64,000 nucleotides of DNA from Actinobacteria bacterium IMCC26207 (GTDB lineage Bacteria > Actinomycetota > Acidimicrobiia > Acidimicrobiales > Microtrichaceae): contig LCZK01000008.1 in the NCBI GenBank assembly GCA_001025035.1, positions 124,001 through 188,000 of the forward strand. Direction: 5' to 3'. Positions 9,182-44,862 of this stretch are shown here, in pieces (position 1 is the first letter of the stretch; every line of letters starts with the position of its first letter). Under the pieces are notes generated by a model, which worked only from the letters and a program-made list of their open reading frames with translations, did not search any database and was not told the origin of the DNA. Both the position numbers and the translations under genes were made by a program.

Positions 9182-10573
9182 CTACTGCTGAGCCATCCAG
9201 TTGCCGTGAAAGCCAAATGGCACTCTGCGCGGCAGGTGAACTCGCCCAACCTCGGTCATCTCTTGGGCGTCAAGAATGACGAGTGCCGACTCCGTTGAGT
9301 TCTGATCACTGACAATGTTCAGCAACCAGCCCGCATCCTCTTCGGTCCGGTCAGGGTCGGGAGCAAACACGGCCTCCCCACAGACTGAGTGATCGCCGTA
9401 GATGTGTGTAACCGAGGTCCCCTCTTGTAGGTCGTGGCGCGTCACACCATCAAAGACAACCTCGTCTTCCTGCCAGCTACGAGTGTGACCCAAGTACCCA
9501 TACCTAGACTTCAGCCCCGCAAATGCATCATTGATTCGTGGGAAGTCGGCGGGTCGATCATCCAACCTCTCTTCAGAGACCGTTCCAGCTAGCGGGTTGA
9601 TGCGCCAACGATGCAATGACGGCCTCACGGTGTCGCCAACGATGTCATCACCAAAGCTGACATTGAGACGATCCGACCGGCATCCCTCAACAACAACGGT
9701 GTCTCCATCGTCATAGGCGTTCAGGAAGTGGAAGACAAAAAACGGGTCGACCTCAATCCAGCGCACACCAAGCTCGAGTGCTTGGCGGTCCAGAACCCCA
9801 ATTCGAGCCCCGTTTTCTGGCGCCCACTCAATCGCAGCCCCGCCGGCCAACATCGCATCAAGATCAAAGACCGCAGGCAGATCAAAGAAGACGACGTGGC
9901 GGCGGGAAACTGCAAAGTCATGCATCATGACGGGATTCGGCAGGTTGATCTCAATGCTGTTTATGAGCGTTCCCGAAGCATCGGCTTGATGGAAACGCAG
10001 ATAAGGCGGAAAGGGGCTGTAGCCAAAGAACAACAACTCTCCAGTTTCTGGGTCTTCTTTGGGGTGAGCAGTCATCGGGCCGATCAGAGCGCCAGCAAAA
10101 TCCCACTCGCCAAGAGTGGCTAACTCGTTATTCATCTCGATTGGCTTGCCTGCTTCCATGAGCGCAAGCAGTCGGCCCCCGTGCTTGACGATGTTGGTAT
10201 TGGCCGTGTTCTTCATCATGCCGGCCTCGGCAAGAAGCTCCTCGGGCGGCATCCGAAACTCCGATAGGCCTCCAAAAAGCGCCTCGCCTTCTCGCCGCTC
10301 AATCAACAACCCCTTCGACTCGACATACCGGTTGTGATAACTCGCTCGGCCTTCACCTAGGCGAACAGCGTGAAGCATTCCGTCGCCATCGAAGACGTGA
10401 TAGCGGGTCAGCGGGTCGAACTGCGGGTTCGGCCCGTTGCGAATGTACATTCCATCTAATGCCAAGGGAATCCTGCCCGTGACCCGAAGGCCTTCGACAT
10501 CAAGTTCATCCCTCACAGGCTCGTACTGACCGATCAAGAACGGGTTTGCACTAGCTAGCGATTCGAGTGACAT
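9182..10573 (-). CDS. carotenoid oxygenase family (RPE65/lignostilbene dioxygenase) protein 1
   Basis: About 463 residues. The family N-terminus GMYIRNGPNPQF...YHVFDGDGMLHAVRL is intact, and the four non-haem Fe(II)-binding His are in place: about H170 (MTAHPKEDP), H218 (MMHDFAV), H282 (VFHFLNAYDDGD) and H456 (FGFHGNW). These enzymes cleave C=C double bonds of carotenoids, apocarotenoids or stilbenes with O2. The length is normal for a bacterial member. The ATG at 10573 is preferred over a TTG at 10582. A 15-bp palindrome sits 31 bp upstream and recurs at two other promoters, so the gene is very likely controlled by the adjacent TetR. The substrate is unknown. Confidence 0.9.
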   Translation of the reverse strand: MSLESLASANPFLIGQYEPVRDELDVEGLRVTGRIPLALDGMYIRNGPNPQFDPLTRYHVFDGDGMLHAVRLGEGRASYHNRYVESKGLLIERREGEALFGGLSEFRMPPEELLAEAGMMKNTANTNIVKHGGRLLALMEAGKPIEMNNELATLGEWDFAGALIGPMTAHPKEDPETGELLFFGYSPFPPYLRFHQADASGTLINSIEINLPNPVMMHDFAVSRRHVVFFDLPAVFDLDAMLAGGAAIEWAPENGARIGVLDRQALELGVRWIEVDPFFVFHFLNAYDDGDTVVVEGCRSDRLNVSFGDDIVGDTVRPSLHRWRINPLAGTVSEERLDDRPADFPRINDAFAGLKSRYGYLGHTRSWQEDEVVFDGVTRHDLQEGTSVTHIYGDHSVCGEAVFAPDPDRTEEDAGWLLNIVSDQNSTESALVILDAQEMTEVGRVHLPRRVPFGFHGNWMAQQ

Positions 10574-10604
10574 AGGGGTCAATGTATCCCTCGAGCCGCG
10601 ATCT

Positions 10605-10619
10605 GTAAACGGTGTTTAC
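10605..10619. promoter_or_regulatory. palindromic operator, copy 1 (GTAAAC-N3-GTTTAC)
   Basis: GTAAACGGTGTTTAC lies 31 bp upstream of the carotenoid oxygenase 1 start, between that gene and the 3' end of the tetR gene. It has six-base perfect half-sites around a 3-bp centre. It is the reverse complement of copy 2 and differs from copy 3 by one base; TetR-family dimers bind sites of this architecture. Confidence 0.8.
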
Positions 10620-10643
10620 CTCTCGGGCAGATCCCCCGGCCAG

Positions 10644-11243
10644 CTATTGAGCTAGCGGATGGACTTGTCCGGCAAGAACAGTGTTAATCACCGAGTCCAT
10701 CAGTTCCACCGAGGCTTCCTCGTCAGCTGCGAACCCCAGCAGCAATACCTCTGCCACTCCGTGGATTGCCGCCCACATCGTCATGCTGGCTACACCCGGG
10801 TCCGTCACAGCTAGTTGACCAGCCGCAATTGCCTCAGAGGTAGCGGCCGACGCCGCATCAAAGGCTCGAGTTGCCGCTGGAAACGCGTCAACCCCAGGAA
10901 CGGGCGTTGGAGGGTAACGAAACATCAGATGAAATAGCGCCGGTGAGGACAGCGCGTGCAACACATAAGCCCGGCTCAACGCTCGGATTCGCTCGAGAGG
11001 GTCTGCTTGATCAATGGCGTCGAAACGTTGAACGAGTTGCTCAAAGTGCTCGGTTGCAACAGCTTCGAGCAGGTCATCTTTGTCTTTGACATAGGCATAC
11101 AGCGCTGGAGCAGTGACTCCGAGTTGCCGAGCAAGACCGCGCAGCGAGAGCTGTCCAACGCCTTCAGACTCCAACTGCTGTCGAGCAGTTTCAATCAAAA
11201 GTTCCCGAGTGAGGGGTGCACGCATACCCACAGCTTGCCTCAT
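10644..11243 (-). CDS. TetR-family repressor (WHG-type C-terminal domain)
   Basis: About 199 residues. The N-terminal helix-turn-helix is clear (LLIETARQQLESEG...SLRGLARQLGVTAPALYAYVKDKDDLLEAVA). The ligand-binding half contains AAIHGVAEVLLLGF, typical of TetR proteins with a WHG-type C-terminus. I take ATG 11243 (11225 is also possible). The open frame reaches 11345, but it would then translate through the operator at 11292-11306. The repressor is expected to bind the GTAAAC-N3-GTTTAC palindrome upstream of itself, of both flanking carotenoid oxygenase genes and of the ABC-importer operon 9 kb away, and to release DNA when bound to a hydrophobic ligand, perhaps the imported substrate or its cleavage product. 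The ligand is inferred, not shown. Confidence 0.9.
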   Translation of the reverse strand: MRQAVGMRAPLTRELLIETARQQLESEGVGQLSLRGLARQLGVTAPALYAYVKDKDDLLEAVATEHFEQLVQRFDAIDQADPLERIRALSRAYVLHALSSPALFHLMFRYPPTPVPGVDAFPAATRAFDAASAATSEAIAAGQLAVTDPGVASMTMWAAIHGVAEVLLLGFAADEEASVELMDSVINTVLAGQVHPLAQ

Positions 11244-11291
11244 CAGAGCAAACTGATTCGCAAGATCAGTTGCAACTAATCCCGATTGCGG

Positions 11292-11306
11292 GTAAACACC
11301 GTTTAC
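11292..11306. promoter_or_regulatory. palindromic operator, copy 2, shared by divergent tetR and carotenoid oxygenase 2
   Basis: GTAAACACCGTTTAC, extended to 19 bp by GG/CC flanks (11290-11308). It lies 48 bp upstream of the tetR start and 20 bp upstream of the carotenoid oxygenase 2 start, so a single bound dimer could repress both genes. Confidence 0.85.
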
Positions 11307-11326
11307 CCATCCCATCTGGAGCTCAT

Positions 11327-13057
11327 GTGCCACTGCCCCGATCAATCTTTAGCCAGTCCACGCCGCAAGACCATGACTTGACGCTCCTGAGCGGAATCTG
11401 GCCCCAGGATCTAACTGGCGAGCTCCTTCTGAGCGCGCCGCACCCGAGCACATTCGACAACCCTCATCCGTTCTTTGGCGATGGCATGACCTACCGTCTC
11501 TCGCTCGAGGCTGGAACGCACGGAGCGCCTCAGGACTCGTTTGCTTGGCGGCAGCGGATCATTGATTCCCCCTCGGCTCGCCTACGGACCCTGCGGCCTG
11601 ACGTCTTCTCTGCGACTCATATGGGAGTGCAGTCTCCATTCGGTATGAGCAACGCTGCCAACACTGCGCCTTTACCTTGGGGGGATCGCCTCTTTACGAC
11701 TTGGGACGTTGGGCGACCAGTCGAGATTGACCCTCTCACGCTGGGCTTTCTTGGCGAGGTTGGCCATCGCTCCGAATGGAAAGACTTCGAGATTTTTGAC
11801 CAGCCGATCCTGCCGCTCGTCATGAGCACGGCACACCCCGTGATCGACCCCGACCGAGATGTTCTCTGGACCGTGAATATCTTCTGGGGAGAACTCCACG
11901 TGGTGCGCTGGGATGGAGTGAATCCGCTCCAGATGTGGCCGATTACTGGCGGGCTCATCCCTCAGTCAGTTCACACCATTACCCAGACTCGCGACTGGCT
12001 CATCATTGGCGATTGCGCATTCAAGGTGGAACCCCAGGTGCTCACTGGAGGCGACCGCTTGGAGCCAGCAAATGCCTCCGGCCCGGTGTACCTAATTCGT
12101 AAAGACGCTCTAGAAGCCGTTCCCCCGGGTACTCCAGTTGCGGCAAACGTGTTTGAGATTGCCCCCGAAATCAACCACTACTACGCCATGTACGAGGATG
12201 CAGATGGCATTCAAGTCCTGTTTGAACACACGCAGAATGCAGACTTGGCAATGACTCAGGGCGCCGGCGATATTGACGCTCTCGGCCGACCTGTCGACCC
12301 TGCCCTGTGCGGCCTTTTTGGATTTCCCATGAGCCCAGATCGCAATACTCTCATTGAGTTCAATCCAGAGACCGGCAAGGTGCACGAGCGCGCCGAGCAG
12401 CGTGACCCCTCGCTGCTGTGGAGTAGGCAACTGAACGCCATCGATTGGTCTACCGAAGGGCGCTCCAAACCAACAATGCACCACCAGGTTCATTTTGGAT
12501 GGCGCCCCGAGGCCGTCACGCAAAAGATGCTCGCTTTGTATGCAGACCGCATCGACCGTTCCGAATGGCCGGTGGATGAGACACCTCCACTGTTGACAAC
12601 AACCTCGGTGCCGGACCTGCAACTCCAGACGCACCACGAGTTTGCAATGGACGATATGCCAACCTCTCCGATATTTGTCCCTCGTGACCCAGGCTCGGTG
12701 CCGGGAAGTAGCCGATACGCCGGATCAGATCCCGGCGGACATGATGGCTATGTGGTCGTTCCCGTCGTGAACGATAAGGGGTTTCGGGTCGAAGTATTCG
12801 ATGCAGCTTCGGTTGGATCAGGGCCACTTGCAACACTCTCCGGGACGACGGCGGCCGGATCTGCGGTAGCAGTTCCATTCGTCTTGCATTCGGCTTGGAT
12901 GCCCAGAGTTATTGCATCGCAGGATCTACCGCGGCTCAAGTTTTCAGCCGAGCTTGACCGGATTGACCAGCTCCCGGAGGACCTAGCAGCAGCGGCAAGG
13001 CAAGTGGCTCGAGACCTAGACGAAGGCATTCCAATGGATGCCCCGGCAATGAGCTAA
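11327..13057 (+). CDS. carotenoid oxygenase family protein 2
   Basis: About 576 residues, longer than the first copy and only distantly similar to it. The GTG at 11327 is chosen because GGAG lies 5 nt upstream and because the longer reading from 11216 would translate the operator. FGDGMTYRLSLEAG matches the family N-terminal blade. His candidates for the iron site are about H170 (MSTAHPVIDPDRD), H216 (QSVHTITQTRDW), the His in VLFEHTQNADLA and the C-terminal FVLHSAWMP. It is predicted to be an Fe(II)-dependent double-bond-cleaving dioxygenase in the cytoplasm or at the membrane surface. It is divergent from tetR and shares its operator. Two diverged paralogues in one regulon suggest sequential or complementary cleavage. 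Confidence 0.88.
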   Translation: MPLPRSIFSQSTPQDHDLTLLSGIWPQDLTGELLLSAPHPSTFDNPHPFFGDGMTYRLSLEAGTHGAPQDSFAWRQRIIDSPSARLRTLRPDVFSATHMGVQSPFGMSNAANTAPLPWGDRLFTTWDVGRPVEIDPLTLGFLGEVGHRSEWKDFEIFDQPILPLVMSTAHPVIDPDRDVLWTVNIFWGELHVVRWDGVNPLQMWPITGGLIPQSVHTITQTRDWLIIGDCAFKVEPQVLTGGDRLEPANASGPVYLIRKDALEAVPPGTPVAANVFEIAPEINHYYAMYEDADGIQVLFEHTQNADLAMTQGAGDIDALGRPVDPALCGLFGFPMSPDRNTLIEFNPETGKVHERAEQRDPSLLWSRQLNAIDWSTEGRSKPTMHHQVHFGWRPEAVTQKMLALYADRIDRSEWPVDETPPLLTTTSVPDLQLQTHHEFAMDDMPTSPIFVPRDPGSVPGSSRYAGSDPGGHDGYVVVPVVNDKGFRVEVFDAASVGSGPLATLSGTTAAGSAVAVPFVLHSAWMPRVIASQDLPRLKFSAELDRIDQLPEDLAAAARQVARDLDEGIPMDAPAMS

Positions 13058-13063
13058 ATCTCT

Positions 13064-13207
13064 GCGCTCGCTCGGCCAGACGAGCGCTCTCATTCCGGGC
13101 AGCGCGCTCTACTACATAGGCTCGCTTGACCAAAGCAGCGGTCTCGACCACACCGGAGCGCTTGACTACACCGGCGCGCTCCACCAAACCAGAGCGCTTA
13201 GAGCTTT
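13064..13207. repeat. eight degenerate 18-bp tandem repeats
   Basis: Units at 13064, 13082, 13100, 13118, 13136, 13154, 13172 and 13190, each 18 bp, share a GCGCT core about 5 bp in and a GACCACAC-like end (for example CGGAGCGCTTGACTACAC at 13154). On the minus strand they would read as a hexapeptide series such as GVVKRS, ALVKRA, YVVERA. There is no convincing gene here: the only frame runs into the antisense of carotenoid oxygenase 2. The last unit is partial. Confidence 0.8.
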
Positions 13208-13223
13208 GTGGTTAATGGGTTGT

Positions 13224-13340
13224 GAGTGTCACTCGCAAGCAGTACGTTAGAACGTGTGTTCGATCCCCGGTCCCCAGGGTGAACACCTGACTAACCAAGT
13301 AGCACTCACTTGGTCCGCCTGACAGATCTTTCTGCCAGGC
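13224..13340 (+). other. hairpin-rich leader upstream of the DUF222-HNH gene
   Basis: Three stem-loops follow one another: GAGTG/CACTC (13224-13234), ACCAAGT/ACTTGGT (13294-13314), and GCCTG-CAGA/TCTG-CAGGC with one mismatch (13317-13340). They end about 58 bp before the proposed ATG at 13399. This may be a structured 5' leader or part of the repeat element that carries DUF222 genes. No known riboswitch class is recognised. Confidence 0.4.
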
Positions 13341-13398
13341 AACGGGCTTGGGTGTTGTAGCTGTGACTTTTTGCGGTATAGGCCGCTCAGGGGACCCT

Positions 13399-14931
13399 AT
13401 GTGTACTGACCCAATCAAAGACTCGGATTCAACTCCGAAACCTGAAACAGCGCCGGCAAGCACCTCCGCTGATGCTGCTCATGCTCGTACTGCCGCTGGT
13501 GCTGGTGGTGCCGCTGCTGGTGCCGCCGGGTCTGGTGTTTCCCCTGATGCTGGCTCTGCGGGTACGGCTAGTTCTGCGGGTACTGGTGCGGGTACGGCCG
13601 GTGCGGGTAGTCGGTCTGGTTTTGGTTTGGGTGTGGAGTTGGGTGTTGTTGCGGAGCAGGGTGCGGGTGGTTTGGTTGCGTTAGCGAATCTTGTGGCCGG
13701 TATGAGTGCGCGTGGTTCTGGCGGTTCGGGCGGGTCTGGGTCTTCTGGGTCTGGTTGTGGTGGTGGTGTGGGTGTTGTGTCTGACGAGGTGCTTGTCGGG
13801 TTGTCTGATGTGTTGGAATCAGCCCAACGTGCGTTGGATTCAGCACGGTTAACAGTCGTGGGTGAACTCGACGCCCGGAACGTCTCGTTACGCACCAAAG
13901 GCCTTGTCATGAACGCCTGGTTAGGCCACGAATACCTCCTCGCGCGCCCTGTTGCATCCCGGATGGTCTCCACTGCCCGCAAACTACGCTCCGTGCTACC
14001 TCAAGTTGCTGAAGCGTTACGTAACGGGCTCATCACCGCCGATCACGCTGCACTTTTGTCCAAGCTGTGTGTCACACGGGTTGAACCCATCATGGTTGCG
14101 TTACAAACAGAGTTCATCAGCCTCACAACAGGTGTCCGGTTTGAACAATGGGCAAACGAAATCCGCGCACTCATCGATCTTGCTGACCCAGACGGGGCAC
14201 ACCTACCAAACCCTGACCACAACCGGATCAACATGAGCGACGGCCTCTCAGGCGAACTCCACCTCGACGGCGATTTCGTAGCCGACACAGCAGCAACAAT
14301 CCGAGCAGCACTCCTCACCGAAACCGACCGCCGTGTTACACATCACCGCAAACTCAAAACAGCTAACCCCGATCACATCATCCCGGGGAGACCACAACTC
14401 CTAGCTGAAGCACTCACCGAACTCATCCGCAGAGCTATCAGCACCCAACCAGGAACCACCAACAACCCGGCAACTGACATCACCCTTGTCATCGAAGCCT
14501 CAGACCCCGTCCACGCCACCACACCAGACGGTGTCCGCCTCCAAGACGGCACCACCCGACTCCTCAACTGCGACCCCAAAATCCAAGCACTCATCATCAA
14601 CAGCCTCGGCATCCCACTCGACCTCGGAACCGCTGTTCGATACGCAACACCCAACCAACGCAAAGCCATAGCCATCAGAGACCAAGGATGCGTCGTCCCC
14701 GGATGCGACGCACCACACAACTGGGTCGACCTACACCACGTCAAAGAAGCCCAAGACGGCGGTCCAACAGATCTCAACAATCTGGTCTCCTTATGCAAAC
14801 CACACCACGCACTACTCCACACCAACGGCTGGACCATCACCGAAAACCCCAACAAACCCGGCCGCTACATCATCACCACACCAACCGGCACCCAACTCAA
14901 CACCCAACACAACGGCAAACCCAGCCCATAA
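13399..14931 (+). CDS. DUF222 / 13E12-repeat family HNH endonuclease
   Basis: About 510 residues from ATG 13399, which has AGGGGA 4 nt upstream; a TTG at 13348 would add 17 residues. Residues up to about 125 are low-complexity Gly/Ala/Ser. A DUF222 domain follows (GLSDVLESAQRALDSARL through LTELIRRA), then a C-terminal HNH nuclease with zinc-knuckle-like cysteines: CVVPGCDAPHNWVDLHHVKEA..LNNLVSLCKPHHALLH. Such proteins are multicopy in actinobacteria and linked to REP13E12 elements; their substrate is unknown, though DNA cleavage or mobility is likely. Base composition flips within the gene: 13480-13850 is G/T-rich on the coding strand, while 14170-14930 is A/C-rich. A tandem-repeat array lies just upstream. 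Confidence 0.9.
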   Translation: MCTDPIKDSDSTPKPETAPASTSADAAHARTAAGAGGAAAGAAGSGVSPDAGSAGTASSAGTGAGTAGAGSRSGFGLGVELGVVAEQGAGGLVALANLVAGMSARGSGGSGGSGSSGSGCGGGVGVVSDEVLVGLSDVLESAQRALDSARLTVVGELDARNVSLRTKGLVMNAWLGHEYLLARPVASRMVSTARKLRSVLPQVAEALRNGLITADHAALLSKLCVTRVEPIMVALQTEFISLTTGVRFEQWANEIRALIDLADPDGAHLPNPDHNRINMSDGLSGELHLDGDFVADTAATIRAALLTETDRRVTHHRKLKTANPDHIIPGRPQLLAEALTELIRRAISTQPGTTNNPATDITLVIEASDPVHATTPDGVRLQDGTTRLLNCDPKIQALIINSLGIPLDLGTAVRYATPNQRKAIAIRDQGCVVPGCDAPHNWVDLHHVKEAQDGGPTDLNNLVSLCKPHHALLHTNGWTITENPNKPGRYIITTPTGTQLNTQHNGKPSP

Positions 14932-15111
14932 CAGAAACACGCTGAAGCTCGCCCGATCGTGCCACTCGACCAGCCAGCGGCGCAGCGGCGACAGTTGCTC
15001 TAGCCTCTCCGCGGCCCTACCCCCACCGGCGAAAACCCGAGCCTCAGCATGCAGGGCAGCGCCCCAGCAGACCAGAGCGTGCCGGTCACTGAGTCCCGTC
15101 AGCCAGTCGGG

Positions 15112-15975
15112 TCACTCCCCGAAATAACCTGCCTCAACAAGGTCAGGGTCCGCAGACAACTCTGCAGAAGAACCCGACAGGGTGGCTTTGCCGCGCCTCA
15201 GTAGGTATGCCCGGTCAGAAACTGCGAGCGCCAAGTGCACGTGCTGCTCGACTATTAACACACCGGCACCTGTTGTCTGAGCAAAGGTCCGAAGCACTGG
15301 CAGCAATTGCTCAACCAGAATCGGAGCAAGTCCCAGACTCAGCTCATCTACCATCAGCAACTTCGGCTGACTCATCAATCCCCTGCCAATCGCCAACATC
15401 TGTTGCTGACCCCCAGACAACAGCCCCGCTGGCTGATCAAGCAACCCAGTGAGTGCCGGGAAATAGCCCAAGACCTGATCCAAGATCTCTGAACTATCAA
15501 GTTGGTGCTCACCTTGGTTCGTATCGTCCTCGACTTGGGAGGGCGCCTGCTTTCTTCCCAGTGACCCATGCTTGCGGTCTGACTTCCTCTTGAGTCCAAG
15601 CCGCAGATTTTCTTGAACAGTCAGATCAAAAAAGAGAGCCCTATCTTCTGGCACATGAGCGATTCCCGATCTGGCTCGGTCTAGGACTTGCTGCGATCTT
15701 GCGGAGTGATTGCCCCCGCCAATGGGCATCCTGCGAGAGGCCTCAAGGTCTCTACCCTGCAATTCAATAGATCCTCCCAAGAGCGGAATAAGCCCCGAGA
15801 TTGTCAGCAGAGTGGTGGTCTTTCCAACCCCGTTAGCCCCGAGCAGCGCAACAACCTCACCGGCACCAACGGTCAGATCAAGTCCGTTCACAACAGCTAG
15901 CCCGTCGTGGCCCGCAACAACTCCAGTACAGCGCAGGATGGGATCCTCCGTTGGGCTCACCTGAGGCACACTCAT
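15112..15975 (-). CDS. livF: branched-chain-amino-acid-type ABC importer ATPase (LivF-like)
   Basis: A 287-residue ABC ATPase. Walker A is GANGVGKTT, the signature LSGGQQQM, Walker B LLMVDELSLGL and the switch His is in IVEQHVHLAL. DELSLGLAP and the order of genes fit LivF. It energises substrate import with LivG on the cytoplasmic face. Two charged insertions are unusual for the family: one after the first strands (ASRRMPIGGGNHSARSQQ) and one of about 30 residues in the helical domain (from RKSDRKHG to HQLDSS), making the protein about 50 residues longer than usual. The start overlaps the livG stop by 4 bp (ATGA). It is the last gene of the importer operon; the 180 bp beyond it carry no obvious terminator. 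Confidence 0.9.
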   Translation of the reverse strand: MSVPQVSPTEDPILRCTGVVAGHDGLAVVNGLDLTVGAGEVVALLGANGVGKTTTLLTISGLIPLLGGSIELQGRDLEASRRMPIGGGNHSARSQQVLDRARSGIAHVPEDRALFFDLTVQENLRLGLKRKSDRKHGSLGRKQAPSQVEDDTNQGEHQLDSSEILDQVLGYFPALTGLLDQPAGLLSGGQQQMLAIGRGLMSQPKLLMVDELSLGLAPILVEQLLPVLRTFAQTTGAGVLIVEQHVHLALAVSDRAYLLRRGKATLSGSSAELSADPDLVEAGYFGE

Positions 15976-16778
15976 GATTCTGATCCCGCACCAGGAGCAG
16001 GCTCGTCGACCCCAGAACTGCCATGGCCCAGATAGGCGGAAATGACGAGTGGATCAGATCGAATCTGTTCGGGAGTACCACTTGCGATGATCGAACCAAA
16101 GTCCAAGACATGAACCTGATCGCAAACCCCTAGGACCAAACTCATATCGTGATCCACTAACAAGACGCTCACACCGCGATCTGGCAGCGACCGCAGCAAC
16201 TTGCTGAGTTCCGCCGTCTCAGATGGATTCAGGCCTGCTGCTGGCTCGTCAAGAAGCAGCAACTTCGGCTTACCAACAAGCGCCCGCCCTACCGCTACTA
16301 AGTGCCGCTGCCCATTCGAGAGGTGTTCCGGTCGATCCTCAGCAAACCTATCTAACCCGAGCAGCTCAAGAACTTCCTCGACTGCGGCATCAACCTTGCG
16401 CTTTGGCCAGAGCGCATCGGTCAGGGTAGAGATCCATGTGGGTGTGGCAGCGGCAACTCTCAAGTTGTCTCGCACCGTCAGGTCATCAAAAAGCTCGAGG
16501 GACTGAAAAGTACGGGCAAACCCCAGGCGAACTCGACTCTGAGGTGACAGACGGTCAATCGATCGGCCCAAAAAGCTGATGTAACTAAAGGACGGGTTAC
16601 GAGCGCTCGGAGTGGTGAACCCACTCAGTGCATCAATACATGTGGTCTTGCCCGCACCGTTAGGACCAATCAGTCCAACGATTTGACCATCGGCCACGTC
16701 AAAGCTGACCGAACTCAGCGCCAACACGCCGCCGTAGCGAACACTCAGATCCCGGACCTGCAAAACCACTTCACTCAT
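15972..16778 (-). CDS. livG: branched-chain-amino-acid-type ABC importer ATPase (LivG-like)
   Basis: About 268 residues. Walker A is GPNGAGKTT, the signature LSNGQRHLV, Walker B LLLLDEPAAGLNP and the switch His is in LVDHDMSLV. ATG 16778 (MSEVVLQVRDLSVRYGG) is chosen: it has GGAG 9 nt upstream, and it overlaps the 3' end of the permease gene by 8 bp, whereas the longer frame to 16862 would translate antisense-like Leu/Val-rich sequence. It pairs with LivF as the motor of the importer. The tight overlaps with both neighbours predict translational coupling and equal expression. Confidence 0.92.
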   Translation of the reverse strand: MSEVVLQVRDLSVRYGGVLALSSVSFDVADGQIVGLIGPNGAGKTTCIDALSGFTTPSARNPSFSYISFLGRSIDRLSPQSRVRLGFARTFQSLELFDDLTVRDNLRVAAATPTWISTLTDALWPKRKVDAAVEEVLELLGLDRFAEDRPEHLSNGQRHLVAVGRALVGKPKLLLLDEPAAGLNPSETAELSKLLRSLPDRGVSVLLVDHDMSLVLGVCDQVHVLDFGSIIASGTPEQIRSDPLVISAYLGHGSSGVDEPAPGAGSES

Positions 16779-18891
16779 GGTGAGGCTCTCCTTCACCAGG
16801 TCCAGCGCCAGCACCAAGTCCGGCACCCGCAGCGGCACCCACACCCGTCCCGCCACCGGCACCCGCGCCCGCGCCCGCGCCCGCTAACAAAGTCTGCTGT
16901 GGTGGCTGCGCACCAATTCCCAGAGACCTTTGCAAGTGCTGAGCCCCTTGACGAACAGCCCCAGTGATGCCGTCTGGTGCAAAAATTGCCATGACAATCA
17001 GGCCGAGCCCGCTGATAGCAAACACATAGGTTCCGGCCTTGCCATCAGTACCACCATTTGCCAACAGGGTGAACAGCCCCGCCTGAGCCAACAGCCCCGC
17101 GATGAGCGCCCCGCCGATGCTTGCGATACCGCCGAGATAGGTAAGCGCTAGCGCTACTAGCGCTCCGATCACCATGAATGAGTTTGTAGACAGCGTCGAA
17201 GTGGAATAGGCCAAAAGAACACCGGCAAGCCCTGCGATACAGGAGGAAACCGCAAAGGCGCCAATCTTGGATCTGGCCACATTGATTCCAGCGGCAGCAG
17301 CAGCTCGCTCGTTGGATCGAACTGCTAGCCAACGCAGACCGGTGCGATTTCGGCGCAGGTTTGCCACCATCAGGCAACTCACGGTGAGCACACCCAGAAC
17401 AAGGAACCCGAAGATCGGTCGGAAGTTGTCAGCGCCACGAGCAGAGATACCGAAGTCCACACCGAACAGCACAGGCCTCGGCGCAGACCTACCCGCGACA
17501 CCCCCCGAGAACCCCTTGCTTGACAGAACCAACTGCTCAAGTGCGACCGCCATTGCAAGCGTTGCAATCGCCAGGCTCATCCCCCTGACTCGCGCCGCAG
17601 GTAGGGCCACAACAACTCCCACTGCGGTGGCCACGAGCGTTGCAACTAGCGCTGCAACCGGGAACGGCAATCCGTCGTTCGCCACGTTGATCACCGTGAA
17701 GCCAGCAACACCAGCAAATGCCAGTTGAGCAAGCGAGATTTGCCCCACATAGCCAGTGATAACGACTATCGACAGCGCCAATAACGCGCTCACCATGGTG
17801 ACAATCAGCGCCTGTCGGTACGCCGCATCAAACCCCAAAAGCGCGACCGACGTAGCTCCGACAAGAAGGATTGTCCAAAGGGTCACATGTCGTGGCGTGG
17901 GCGAGGACGGCAGTCGCTTATCGACAAGATAGGCCCGATCAGGAAGCGCGTCACCGCGCCAGACCAGTGCGATCAAAACCAGAATGACCGGGACAGCTTG
18001 TTGCAGACCTGTGCGAGGCACCCACTCTGGAATCCATGAGGTACTCGGTCGCACCGTGTAGCCCAAAATGAGCGACTGCAGCATCCCGATTCCAAGACCG
18101 GCGCATGTTGCAATCGCGAACGAACTCAGCCCACCTAGCAAAGCCGCTGCTAGCGCGGGCAGTACCAACAGACTCGTGGTGATCGGATCGAGCCCCGAGA
18201 TCGGCTCAATCAGGATGACGGCAATTCCGGCGATCACGGTCGCAATCATGGAGTTGATCAGGCCAATTCGATCGGGCGAGATTCCAACCAGCATGGCCCC
18301 CTTCTGACTACCTGCTGCTGCCCTGGTTTGCAGACCAAACTTTGTGTATCTGAAGAGCGCTGTCAGCGCCACCGTGGCCAGCACCACGAACACGACCAAG
18401 AGCAGGCGGTTCGCAGTAACCGCAGTGCCCAAAAACCGGACAGGTCGTTCAGGCAGGACGCCCATTCGCACGACGGTCGCTGCGCTGCCTGTCGGAAAGT
18501 TCAGGCGCACAACCTCTTGCAAGTACAACATCAATCCAAGCGAGGCAACCACACTTGCGAGCGCCGGTGCTCGACGTAGAGGCCGAAATACCAACCAGTA
18601 GGTTGCTGCACCCAGAACAGCCGAGAGCAACACAGCCATGAGCAACGCCGTAAACAAAGTAGGCGTCGCGAGCAGGTGAATTCTTGAGGGGATGAAAATC
18701 ACTGGCAGGATCAAATCGCCGTTATCACGGAACTGGAAATAGGCGAAGGCGACGTACATTCCCATCGCCCCGAATGCGAAGTTGATCACTCCTGTTGCAC
18801 GGTTCGTGAGAACCAACCCGAGTGCAAGCGCGGCAACTACTGCACCTCCACCAAGTCCGGCCAGGATGAATCCCGAATACTCGCCAATCAC
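16771..18891 (-). CDS. fused LivH-LivM ABC importer permease
   Basis: A 706-residue permease carrying both membrane subunits of a LIV-type importer in one chain. LivH-like sequence occupies residues 1 to about 300 (GLGGGAVVAALALGLVLTNRATGVINFAFGAMG) and LivM-like about 330-650 (VVITGYVGQISLAQLAFAGVAGF). The last 45 residues are a Gly/Ala-rich tail encoded partly by a 6-bp tandem repeat. It starts with GTG, 9 bp after the substrate-binding protein gene. The fusion fixes the 1:1 ratio of the two permease halves. The substrate could be branched-chain amino acids, amides, urea or aromatic compounds, since LIV systems are broad. Operator copy 3 upstream of the operon links it to the carotenoid oxygenases. 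Confidence 0.9.
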   Translation of the reverse strand: MIGEYSGFILAGLGGGAVVAALALGLVLTNRATGVINFAFGAMGMYVAFAYFQFRDNGDLILPVIFIPSRIHLLATPTLFTALLMAVLLSAVLGAATYWLVFRPLRRAPALASVVASLGLMLYLQEVVRLNFPTGSAATVVRMGVLPERPVRFLGTAVTANRLLLVVFVVLATVALTALFRYTKFGLQTRAAAGSQKGAMLVGISPDRIGLINSMIATVIAGIAVILIEPISGLDPITTSLLVLPALAAALLGGLSSFAIATCAGLGIGMLQSLILGYTVRPSTSWIPEWVPRTGLQQAVPVILVLIALVWRGDALPDRAYLVDKRLPSSPTPRHVTLWTILLVGATSVALLGFDAAYRQALIVTMVSALLALSIVVITGYVGQISLAQLAFAGVAGFTVINVANDGLPFPVAALVATLVATAVGVVVALPAARVRGMSLAIATLAMAVALEQLVLSSKGFSGGVAGRSAPRPVLFGVDFGISARGADNFRPIFGFLVLGVLTVSCLMVANLRRNRTGLRWLAVRSNERAAAAAGINVARSKIGAFAVSSCIAGLAGVLLAYSTSTLSTNSFMVIGALVALALTYLGGIASIGGALIAGLLAQAGLFTLLANGGTDGKAGTYVFAISGLGLIVMAIFAPDGITGAVRQGAQHLQRSLGIGAQPPQQTLLAGAGAGAGAGGGTGVGAAAGAGLGAGAGPGEGEPHHE
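16862..16885. repeat. 6-bp tandem repeat in the 3' end of the permease gene
   Basis: Four head-to-tail copies of CCCGCG (the last ends in T) encode part of the Gly-Ala tail of the LivH-LivM fusion. Such a tract can expand or contract in frame without disrupting the protein. Confidence 0.75.
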
Positions 18892-18900
18892 GTTGGTGGC

Positions 18901-20235
18901 TCAGCCCATCCCATAGATCTTGCCGACATCAACCCAGTCGCCGATCTGGTTCAGTTGCCGGTCAGTCATCAGACCCAGCATCTGTTGCGGCGCACACACC
19001 GCCGGCAGGCCCTTGAACTGTTTCCCGTTGCAGGTGTAGGGGTGCCCCATGAAGCTTGAAGCATCGACTTTGCCACGCAGTGCACTTGTCACCGTGTCCG
19101 CCGTGATCCCATCTGCGCCGAGCTCACTCAACACCACATACAGGTTCATAAAGGCCCGAAACGAAACCGTTGCTGCACCAATTGCGTCCAAACCATTGCC
19201 ATATTCGGCAATGACAGCGTTATACAAGTTGGTGTCTGGGTCGGGATTGGTACGACTGATTGGACCTTCGACATTGAAGATTGCACCTTCGGAATCTTCG
19301 GTCGGCACCCCCTCAATAATTTTGGGCGCAGCGCAGGCACCGGTATAGAACGCCTGGGCTTTCAAACCCACAGTGGCAAGCCCCTCAAAGGCAGCCGTGC
19401 ACCCTGTGTCAGCAGTGAGCAACATGATGGCATCCGGGTTTCCCGCTGCCGCAACTTGGATTGCAGAGCCCAAGTCGGTCTCTAGAATTGGGTACGGCAC
19501 CATCTGCACGTTTTCAACCCCCAGCTTCTCGAGGGTCTGTTTGCCGTAGTTGGCACCATCGGCCACCGAGCCGAAGTCTCCGTACAGGATTGCCACCGAT
19601 TTTGCTTTCAACTCAGTAGCGGCATAGTCGGCAAAGGCAACCATTGCTCCCCAGGAGCCGCCGCTGAACTGAAACGAGTTCGAAGCAGTCATCGACTGAG
19701 TGCTCACTGGAATTCCGCCGATAAAGGGGATTTCATTCTCTGCTAGCAGGTCGATTCCATTGCCGAACACGTCGATACCGCCTAGAACTGCCGGCACACC
19801 TTCAGCTACAAATTGCTGTGCGCAACTTGTAGACCCCTCTGCCGAGAACTTGGTGTTACACACTTCGAGTTCAACTGGTCGGCCATCGACCCCACCAAGT
19901 TGATTGTTCACAAAGTCAATGGCCGCCTGAACGCCCTGACTTAATTCTGGAAACGATCCAACTGGCGTGTTCTCTTGGTTGATCATGCCCAAGACCAAGG
20001 GCTTGCCAGTGGCTTTGGTGACCTGAGTCGGCACCTGAGCAGAAATCGAAGACGCTTCAGCACAATCGATGAGGTCTGGAGTGCCACACAGGTCGGTCAG
20101 CACTGCTGTGGTTTCTGACTTCTCGCCACCGTTGCTGACGCTGCTGCGATCCTCGCTACATCCAGCAAGAGCCACTAGGCATGTGCAGGCTAGAGCTGCG
20201 ACTGCAACACGGAAAAGACTGCTCGAACTTGGCAT
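18901..20235 (-). CDS. LIV-type ABC importer substrate-binding lipoprotein (LivK-like)
   Basis: A 444-residue type I periplasmic-binding-protein with a lipoprotein signal peptide: a hydrophobic stretch, then the lipobox LAGC with Cys26. The mature part starts with a short Ser-rich linker. PLVLGMINQENTPVGSFPELSQGVQAAIDFVN is the typical LivJ/K first strand and helix. The segment between Cys120-like and Cys140-like residues (CNTKFSAEGSTSCAQQF) and later Cys pairs suggest disulfides, common in actinobacterial members. It captures the substrate outside the membrane for the LivHM/LivFG importer. ATG 20235 has AGGGGG 5 nt upstream, and a TetR-type operator lies 22 bp upstream of the start. First gene of the operon. 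Confidence 0.92.
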   Translation of the reverse strand: MPSSSSLFRVAVAALACTCLVALAGCSEDRSSVSNGGEKSETTAVLTDLCGTPDLIDCAEASSISAQVPTQVTKATGKPLVLGMINQENTPVGSFPELSQGVQAAIDFVNNQLGGVDGRPVELEVCNTKFSAEGSTSCAQQFVAEGVPAVLGGIDVFGNGIDLLAENEIPFIGGIPVSTQSMTASNSFQFSGGSWGAMVAFADYAATELKAKSVAILYGDFGSVADGANYGKQTLEKLGVENVQMVPYPILETDLGSAIQVAAAGNPDAIMLLTADTGCTAAFEGLATVGLKAQAFYTGACAAPKIIEGVPTEDSEGAIFNVEGPISRTNPDPDTNLYNAVIAEYGNGLDAIGAATVSFRAFMNLYVVLSELGADGITADTVTSALRGKVDASSFMGHPYTCNGKQFKGLPAVCAPQQMLGLMTDRQLNQIGDWVDVGKIYGMG

Positions 20236-20257
20236 TGTCCCCCTTTTTCAGCCCCAA

Positions 20258-20272
20258 ATAAACACCGTTTAC
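20258..20272. promoter_or_regulatory. palindromic operator, copy 3, upstream of the ABC-importer operon
   Basis: ATAAACACCGTTTAC matches copy 2 at 14 of 15 positions; the first base is A instead of G. It is centred about 30 bp before the LivK start codon on the minus strand. It is 9 kb from the tetR gene but keeps the same spacing to the start codon as the other copies. Confidence 0.75.
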
Positions 20273-20336
20273 CGAGAAAGGAAAGTTAGCCCGAATGGAT
20301 TATTCGTACAACCCTCTTGAGAGAGTTCTTTGACCC

Positions 20337-44051: not shown

Positions 44052-44862
44052 AGCTCAAATTGCTAGCTAGCTGCAGTGCAAGTTCTTGATCTCCAGCTAG
44101 TAGGACCTGCTCTGCGATGACCTCGCTTGGTTCACAGCGGCCGCCGGTGAGTCGAAAGAACACCATGACGGGCATCGACACTTCAACCGAGGCTGCGGCT
44201 GACAGGTTGTCCACCACACGGGCACGGTCGGTCACTTCAACGAGGTAGGTGCGCTGCACCTCGCCAGTCAGATCGATGCGGATTCTTGACCCTTCTGGCA
44301 AACCCGCTTTACGCCCGACTATGTACCCCAAGGATGGTTCGATCTCTAACAGTGCTGAACCTATAGCCGCTGGGTCTGCTCGATCCTCAAGGCCGAGCGC
44401 CTGACGAATATCGTGTTCGTGCATAAAGGTGTCGTAGTGGCGAATACGCATAAAGCGGCCGTAGGTCTCATCGGCACTCACAGGAGTCCACGAGGGGGCA
44501 TCGAACTGTTCTTGAGTCATGGCCTGCAGCGCAGCGAGTCGCTCAGTCGTGACATCAAGAAATATCTGTAGAACCTCGGCGCCAGAGAGCGACCGCATGT
44601 CTTCTACCCAAACCTCGCCCATGCGGGCAACGTCATTCTTTAGGTGGGTCAGATGCGTTACATCTACCTCTGGGGCGCGTACCCCGTTCAGCATGAGTTC
44701 GATACCCGCTATGTGACTCAACTGATCCTTGACAGTCCACCCGGGAAGGCAACTTTGCATCATGAACTCGGATTCCTGCAGCGTGGAACACATCTCGGCC
44801 ACTGCGGCCCACTCTTCGGCGAGCAACGGAACAATTGTTTCTTTAGCAACGATGGTGGGCAT
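44041..44862 (-). CDS. mycothiol-dependent maleylpyruvate isomerase (MDMPI/DinB) family protein
   Basis: About 273 residues. The N-terminal half has the DinB-like four-helix fold used by mycothiol-dependent enzymes: EEWAAVAEMCSTLQESEFMMQSCLPGWTVKDQLSHIAGIELML with a metal-ligand His, and further His in MRIRHYDTFMHEHDIRQALG. The C-terminal half (DLTGEVQRTYLVEVTD...LLAGDQELALQL) matches the SCP2-like domain of MDMPI proteins. The start ATG shares one base with the stop of the DsbA-like gene (TGATG), so translation is coupled. Typical members isomerise maleylpyruvate or use mycothiol in detoxification; here the substrate is not evident. Mycothiol use fits an actinobacterium. Confidence 0.85.
   Translation of the reverse strand: MPTIVAKETIVPLLAEEWAAVAEMCSTLQESEFMMQSCLPGWTVKDQLSHIAGIELMLNGVRAPEVDVTHLTHLKNDVARMGEVWVEDMRSLSGAEVLQIFLDVTTERLAALQAMTQEQFDAPSWTPVSADETYGRFMRIRHYDTFMHEHDIRQALGLEDRADPAAIGSALLEIEPSLGYIVGRKAGLPEGSRIRIDLTGEVQRTYLVEVTDRARVVDNLSAAASVEVSMPVMVFFRLTGGRCEPSEVIAEQVLLAGDQELALQLASNLSFTL

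Follow-up and report, generated by a model that had tools for sequence, protein, structure and literature searches.

A conserved palindrome connects a TetR-family regulator, carotenoid oxygenases and a LIV-type importer in a predicted catabolic regulon of Acidimicrobiia

A palindrome of the form GTAAAC-N3-GTTTAC connects a TetR-family regulator gene, two carotenoid oxygenase genes and the operon of a LIV-type importer in a 64,000-nucleotide stretch of Actinobacteria bacterium IMCC26207 (contig LCZK01000008.1), called here the window. The palindrome is almost certainly a shared regulatory site, and the regulon is real and larger than first noted, with at least three more transcription units in the genome. 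Very likely, a TetR repressor controls the uptake of a small alkene compound and its degradation by oxidation, both the binding of the repressor to the palindrome and the substrate being predicted. Sequence comparison provides the basis for this proposal, namely conservation of the operator, the set of genes, co-occurrence with one subfamily of TetR proteins, the grouping of these genes in relatives and intact iron ligands in the oxygenases.

Operator sites in the window and the genome

The genome of IMCC26207 (G000; 3,316,799 bases in 10 contigs) was compared with five sister genomes of the genus (G007-G011), some of which are fragmentary. The carotenoid oxygenases are numbered CCO1 to CCO4, and the periplasmic binding lipoprotein of the importer is abbreviated as SBP. 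A sequence-only reading of the window had described two exact palindromes (10605-10619 and 11292-11306) and a third in which one base is altered (20258-20272), each lying 20-32 bp ahead of a first codon, and all three were recovered. The sites and the regulator gene are as follows.

10605..10619: operator 1, GTAAACGGTGTTTAC, 5′ of CCO1; exact GTAAAC-N3-GTTTAC, kept in all same-genus genomes
11292..11306: operator 2, GTAAACACCGTTTAC, between tetR and CCO2; exact copy, kept in the genus and also found 5′ of CCO2 in other genera
20258..20272: operator 3, ATAAACACCGTTTAC, 5′ of the SBP gene; one base changed, identical in 5/5 sister genomes
10644..11243, minus strand: TetR-family regulator, a predicted repressor with the recognition helix GVTAPALYAYV, whose subfamily co-occurs with the operator

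The measured gaps are 31 bp from operator 1 to the ATG of CCO1 (10573), 20 bp from operator 2 to the GTG of CCO2 (11327) and 22 bp from operator 3 to the ATG of the lipoprotein SBP (20235), and operator 2 also lies 48 bp from the likely ATG of tetR (11243). When two mismatches were allowed, GTAAAC-N3-GTTTAC was observed four times in the window, as against 0.53 expected from shuffled sequence; the fourth match, at 44298, is the only other place within this limit. A scan of the whole genome with GTAAACACCGTTTAC at up to one mismatch returned these three sites only. The claim that no other copy exists is thus correct for the window, but the genome scan adds three degenerate, functional-looking copies at other genes of the regulon. 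Copies in the genome are few rather than many and unrelated. The predicted regulon is supported by this scarcity and by the conservation of the sites in relatives that keep the genes.

Promoter-like sequences overlap or adjoin each operator. They are consensus matches in upstream alignments, as opposed to mapped transcription starts.

10581..10609, minus strand: TTTACA-N17-TACATT, putative promoter with the -35 element within operator 1 (CCO1)
11270..11298, plus strand: TTGCAA-N17-TAAACA, putative promoter with the -10 element within operator 2 (CCO2)
20283..20311, minus strand: TTGTAC-N17-TAACTT, putative promoter just upstream of operator 3, kept in relatives

It is plausible from these matches that the operators are placed where a repressor would act.

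Further members of the regulon

The sequence-only reading had proposed one regulon composed of the TetR, two carotenoid oxygenases and the LIV-type importer. This grouping is supported but too narrow, as three more sites are conserved in the genus.

G000:C9:216703: CCO3 operon, in which the gene of the third carotenoid oxygenase is accompanied by DinB_2-like, cupin-like and Amidohydro_2 genes; degenerate site, also in G008, G009 and G010
G000:C10:238082: Rieske operon, in which Amidohydro_1, SDR and ThuA genes accompany that of a Rieske oxygenase; degenerate site, also in G008, G010 and G011
G000:C10:646449: 606-amino-acid secreted lipoprotein; degenerate site, also in G007, G009, G010 and G011

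Gene order in other genomes ties these units together. In locus L106, CCO3 and the Rieske gene are followed by an operator and then by CCO2, amidohydrolase, SDR and ThuA genes, so that the Rieske genes, CCO3 and CCO2 stand under one operator; this CCO3/Rieske/CCO2 arrangement is also present in L108, L112 and L157. L110 (the locus of L048) keeps CCO2, the entire importer, TetR and CCO1 in one uninterrupted block, where the site 5′ of CCO2 is exact and those 5′ of SBP and in the TetR-CCO1 interval are degenerate. Genes that are dispersed in the genome of IMCC26207 are clustered in L106, L108, L110, L157 and L183. That operator-sharing genes of one genome are neighbours in another is strong independent evidence that they belong to one pathway.

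Several candidates were set aside. CCO4 was rejected as a member because it carries no operator site, and weak palindromes in G000 (C9:710837, C9:612945, C9:41672, C9:255256, C10:122581 and C2:1172) were not counted; a palindrome at G009:C71:3492 lies inside an open reading frame. Likewise, ATAAACAGCGTTTAT at L123:5230-5244 (G000:C6:211229), 5′ of a pstC-like gene, was not counted in the regulon, and G009 has two palindromes of this pstC-site kind 27 bp apart. The 606-amino-acid lipoprotein (L082:4613-6433, G000:C10) contains an internally repeated region; it has no Pfam match, and its AlphaFold prediction (pLDDT 27) gives no usable model.

Conservation of the operator

Every site found in the five sister genomes stands 5′ of the orthologous gene, and across all six genomes of the genus the identity of the sites is far above that of their flanks. 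Between G008, whose TetR is 87% identical to that of IMCC26207, and the latter, the sites of CCO1, CCO2 and SBP are each identical at 15/15 positions, while their 30-base flanks match at only 10/30 and 11/30 for CCO1, 18 and 13 positions for CCO2, and 21 and 14 positions for SBP. The same genes are again preceded by such sites (consensus GTRAACRSYGTTYAC) in other genera and families, often within one compact cluster. The conservation expected in relatives that keep the genes is thus seen in the genus and well beyond it.

Relatives of CCO2 were collected from 29 named loci, chiefly of Acidimicrobiia metagenome genomes, together with isolates of Streptosporangiales. Over the 170 kb of loci that join CCO2 with CCO1, TetR or the importer, 17 sites at up to one mismatch were counted where 0.35 would be expected, and loci with CCO2 alone hold one such site in 130 kb; none at this limit was found in the Streptosporangiales CCO2 loci. 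Counted per gene at the same limit, a site lies upstream of SBP in 7/8 non-redundant loci, CCO2 in 15/30, CCO1 in 10/21 and the Rieske gene in 4/6, as compared with 0/45 for internal or non-regulon genes used as a control. When 298 genomes from this order were scanned with the motif only, blind to gene content, 18 exact sites were obtained outside G000, six of which (in four genomes) are beside CCO1, CCO2, SBP or TetR genes of the system and 12 beside none of them. With a matrix derived from other loci, a score of 12 bits or more was reached by 19/48 upstream regions of carotenoid oxygenase genes where the genome has the TetR subfamily and by 2/20 where it lacks it (Fisher p = 0.02, regions within one genome not being fully independent), and shuffled sequence reached 12 bits in 0/1360 cases.

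Two taxonomic observations were made on the loci. Those of Streptosporangiales (L097-L103; Planobispora, Actinomadura, Spirillospora and Bailinhaonella) place the CCO2 relative in another conserved neighbourhood that contains neither the TetR nor the operator. Metagenome contigs titled 'Bifidobacterium breve' (L085, L095 and L109) hold the acidimicrobial-type locus, and these titles are almost certainly wrong.

Carotenoid oxygenases

9182..10573, minus strand: CCO1, RPE65 family; four iron-ligand histidines (170, 218, 282 and 456) kept at aligned positions
11327..13057, plus strand: CCO2, divergent RPE65 family; histidines 170, 216, 284 and 521 invariant in 23 homologues

The gene families named in the sequence-only reading (two carotenoid oxygenases, TetR and a LIV-type importer) were borne out by Pfam, including RPE65 twice. 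The carotenoid oxygenase fold, a seven-bladed propeller, and the four iron-binding histidines of the RPE65 family are both present. CCO2 is remote in sequence, with about 15% identity to plant CCD1 and bacterial apocarotenoid oxygenases; its confident model (pLDDT 89) matches structures of lignostilbene dioxygenase, the top match, apocarotenoid oxygenase and CCD1 about equally. For CCO1 and CCO3, the nearest sequence is a plant carotenoid 9,10-dioxygenase, and no cut-off of a curated bacterial family is reached. Against the lignostilbene dioxygenase models NF053778 (cut-off 800 bits) and NF053780 (650 bits), CCO1 scores 261 and 231 bits and CCO3 scores 253 and 188 bits, respectively. Against the MtCCO-type model NF052295 (675 bits), the scores are 352 for CCO1, 299 for CCO3 and 495 for CCO4, with no match for CCO2, and a phylum-wide search for this family returned no member above the cut-off. 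CCO4 (L120:6357-7691, G000:C9) is the closest of them to the Mycobacterium tuberculosis type and lies beside a fumarase gene.

LIV-type importer

18901..20235, minus strand: SBP, periplasmic binding lipoprotein; Peripla_BP_6
16771..18891, minus strand: LivH-LivM fused permease of 706 amino acids; BPD_transp_2, a fusion that recurs in relatives
15972..16862, minus strand: LivG-type ATPase; ABC_tran, with the start probably near 16778
15112..15975, minus strand: LivF-type ATPase; ABC_tran

The binding protein, two permease domains (fused) and two ATPases, one of them with BCA_ABC_TP_C, are encoded in one operon, which is the composition of a LIV-type importer. None of these proteins reaches a LIV or urea equivalog cut-off. 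SBP is conserved at 52-88% identity across the loci compared, and its nearest solved relatives by profile, at about 30 bits, are 4evs and 4f06, both binders of aromatic acids, a lead only. The fused permease has an Ala/Gly-rich tail, and the fusion is also found in relatives of other genera. In this genus, a DUF222 gene (13348-14931) separates CCO2 from the importer operon; as CCO2 and LivF are directly convergent in other genera, it appears to have been inserted.

Proposed mechanism and substrate

In the proposed mechanism, a TetR dimer would sit on the core promoters, over the -35 element of CCO1, over the -10 element of CCO2 and just past the -10 element of the importer operon. By repression rather than activation, it would block its own gene, the three enzymes of the carotenoid oxygenase family, the importer, the Rieske/amidohydrolase/SDR/ThuA operon and the secreted lipoprotein. 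TetR would be released by a small ligand, which is probably either the compound taken up or the product of its first cleavage, so that uptake and oxidative cleavage would be turned on jointly. The importer and the lipoprotein would act outside, the oxygenases would split a conjugated double bond, and the resulting pieces may then be processed by the Rieske oxygenase, SDR and hydrolases, in this presumed order.

The regulon likely serves import plus catabolism. Its substrate would be a small conjugated alkene, either an apocarotenoid or an aromatic alkene, and the two halves of the question of whether it is an apocarotenoid rather than an aromatic compound are evenly balanced. A dedicated pathway is tentatively suggested, in which an algal or cyanobacterial apocarotenoid is imported and broken by two or three carotenoid-type oxygenases and the Rieske enzyme under one ligand-sensing TetR. 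If true, lakes and other waters would have a previously unrecognised route by which carotenoid debris is recycled. That the substrate is instead an aromatic alkene of the lignin or plant type, such as a stilbene or phenylpropene, is a serious possibility, somewhat short of an even chance. Stilbene dioxygenases belong to the RPE65 family, the top fold match of CCO2 is one of them, the regulon includes an oxygenase of the Rieske ring-hydroxylating type, and the relatives of SBP point in the same direction; but CCO1 and CCO3 are closest to the plant carotenoid enzyme and miss the lignostilbene cut-offs by far, and the margins of fold and sequence between the two enzyme classes are small.

It is unlikely that the regulon acts in the turnover of the cell's own carotenoids or in the supply of retinal to rhodopsin. 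The genome encodes a rhodopsin (L121, G000:C3:199391-200065) and a phytoene synthase (L122, G000:C8:45704-46465), so that the organism may synthesize carotenoids of its own, and the CcoR-Cco1 pair acting on carotenes in Mycobacterium kansasii is a precedent. However, only 5/33 genomes of the family have a rhodopsin, and its occurrence within the genus is limited to G000 and a fragment in G008. Since rhodopsin is this sparse, retinal supply was rejected as an unlikely main role. Moreover, CCO4, the enzyme most like the mycobacterial one, has no operator, the importer is among the most constant members of the regulon, and the Rieske, amidohydrolase and SDR genes fit catabolism.

Assignment of the operator to the TetR regulator

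It is highly probable that the TetR at 10644-11243 regulates the palindrome, as judged from its sequence and its distribution. It contains the Pfam domains TetR_N (PF00440) and TetR_C_33 (PF13305), both above the cut-off. Site-linked TetRs have a nearly invariant recognition helix, G-V-T-A-(P/A)-A-L-Y-A-(Y/H)-(V/M), which is expected if this subfamily reads the same operator, and TetRs outside the subfamily, including those beside MtCCO-like enzymes, are without it. The alternative that the palindromes are a true shared operator bound by another regulator encoded elsewhere, with tetR merely a member of the set, is improbable. In several relatives the TetR gene is distant from the oxygenase genes and without its own site, and a MarR gene lies within one cluster (L092); but the TetR gene adjoins a site in this genus and in L043, L048, L183 and L184, and the subfamily co-occurs with the site. 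Control by this TetR must also be weighed against three observations. Both high-scoring oxygenase sites in genomes without the subfamily are in G004, which is fragmented and has a TetR-bearing sister, G003; CCO2 is without the operator in Streptosporangiales and a few Acidimicrobiia; and some relatives with the subfamily have no site near the TetR gene, implying that autoregulation is not universal, or none near some oxygenase genes. Short palindromes do arise by chance, as in the 12 blind matches without a regulon gene alongside. Chance or RNA features such as hairpins and terminators can nevertheless practically be dismissed, since the sites hold a conserved position just 5′ of start codons, keep their centre, and are both conserved from genus to genus and strongly enriched.

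Implications and comparison with known systems

Bacterial carotenoid-type oxygenases gain a testable catabolic role here, as the switch and gene set, seen here in freshwater actinobacteria, occur in many relatives. The oxygenases can now be given named partners, namely the importer, the operon of the Rieske oxygenase and the predicted ligand-sensing repressor, conserved in several families of Acidimicrobiia. The binding protein, the ligand pocket of TetR and the enzymes offer three handles on the substrate, and the operator motif can be used for finding further members in metagenomes. Should the substrate prove to be an apocarotenoid, carbon from phytoplankton pigments would reach freshwater bacteria through this pathway.

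The importer resembles LIV-type (branched-chain amino acid/HAAT) importers, including those for aromatic acids, in its Peripla_BP_6 lipoprotein, BPD_transp_2 permeases and two ATPases, and differs in the fusion of LivH with LivM, in missing the equivalog cut-offs and in being tied by the operator to oxygenases. The oxygenases share the fold and the four-histidine iron site with plant CCD1 and bacterial apocarotenoid oxygenases, and CCO1 and CCO3 also have their nearest sequence there, whereas CCO2 is far from all. In the lignostilbene and stilbene dioxygenase (Lsd, NOV) systems of sphingomonads, alkene cleavage by RPE65-family enzymes is likewise the entry to catabolism; a review of that catabolism lists the Lsd enzymes, with transporters not implicated for those dimers (PMC12997858). 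In contrast, CCO1-CCO3 are far below the Lsd family cut-offs, and the present regulon includes an importer.

For a regulon of TetR, carotenoid oxygenase and LIV-type genes, only the CcoR pair was found among the open-licence literature. In CcoR-Cco1 (MKAN_RS18575/18580 in M. kansasii; Rv0653c-Rv0654 in M. tuberculosis), a TetR/AcrR repressor gene is divergent from a carotenoid cleavage oxygenase gene, and cco1 rises about 100-fold when the regulator is lost (PMC9861118). A TetR adjoining a carotenoid oxygenase gene is the feature shared with window positions 9182-13057. The accessible text on CcoR-Cco1 describes breakdown of the cell's own carotenes and no importer, multi-operon regulon or operator (PMC9861118). 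The CcoR-Cco1 enzyme type corresponds here to the CCO4-like one, outside the regulon. In L172 and L173, acidimicrobial MtCCO-like genes adjoin the gene of a TetR from another subfamily, possibly CcoR-like; this TetR has another recognition helix, and the palindrome is absent. The view that the system had not been described applies to the whole set, but its TetR-oxygenase core resembles mycobacterial CcoR-Cco1. As far as the accessible text on that pair extends, the core idea is shared, and what goes beyond it is the placement of an importer, several oxygenases and a Rieske operon under one operator, together with a different enzyme subfamily.

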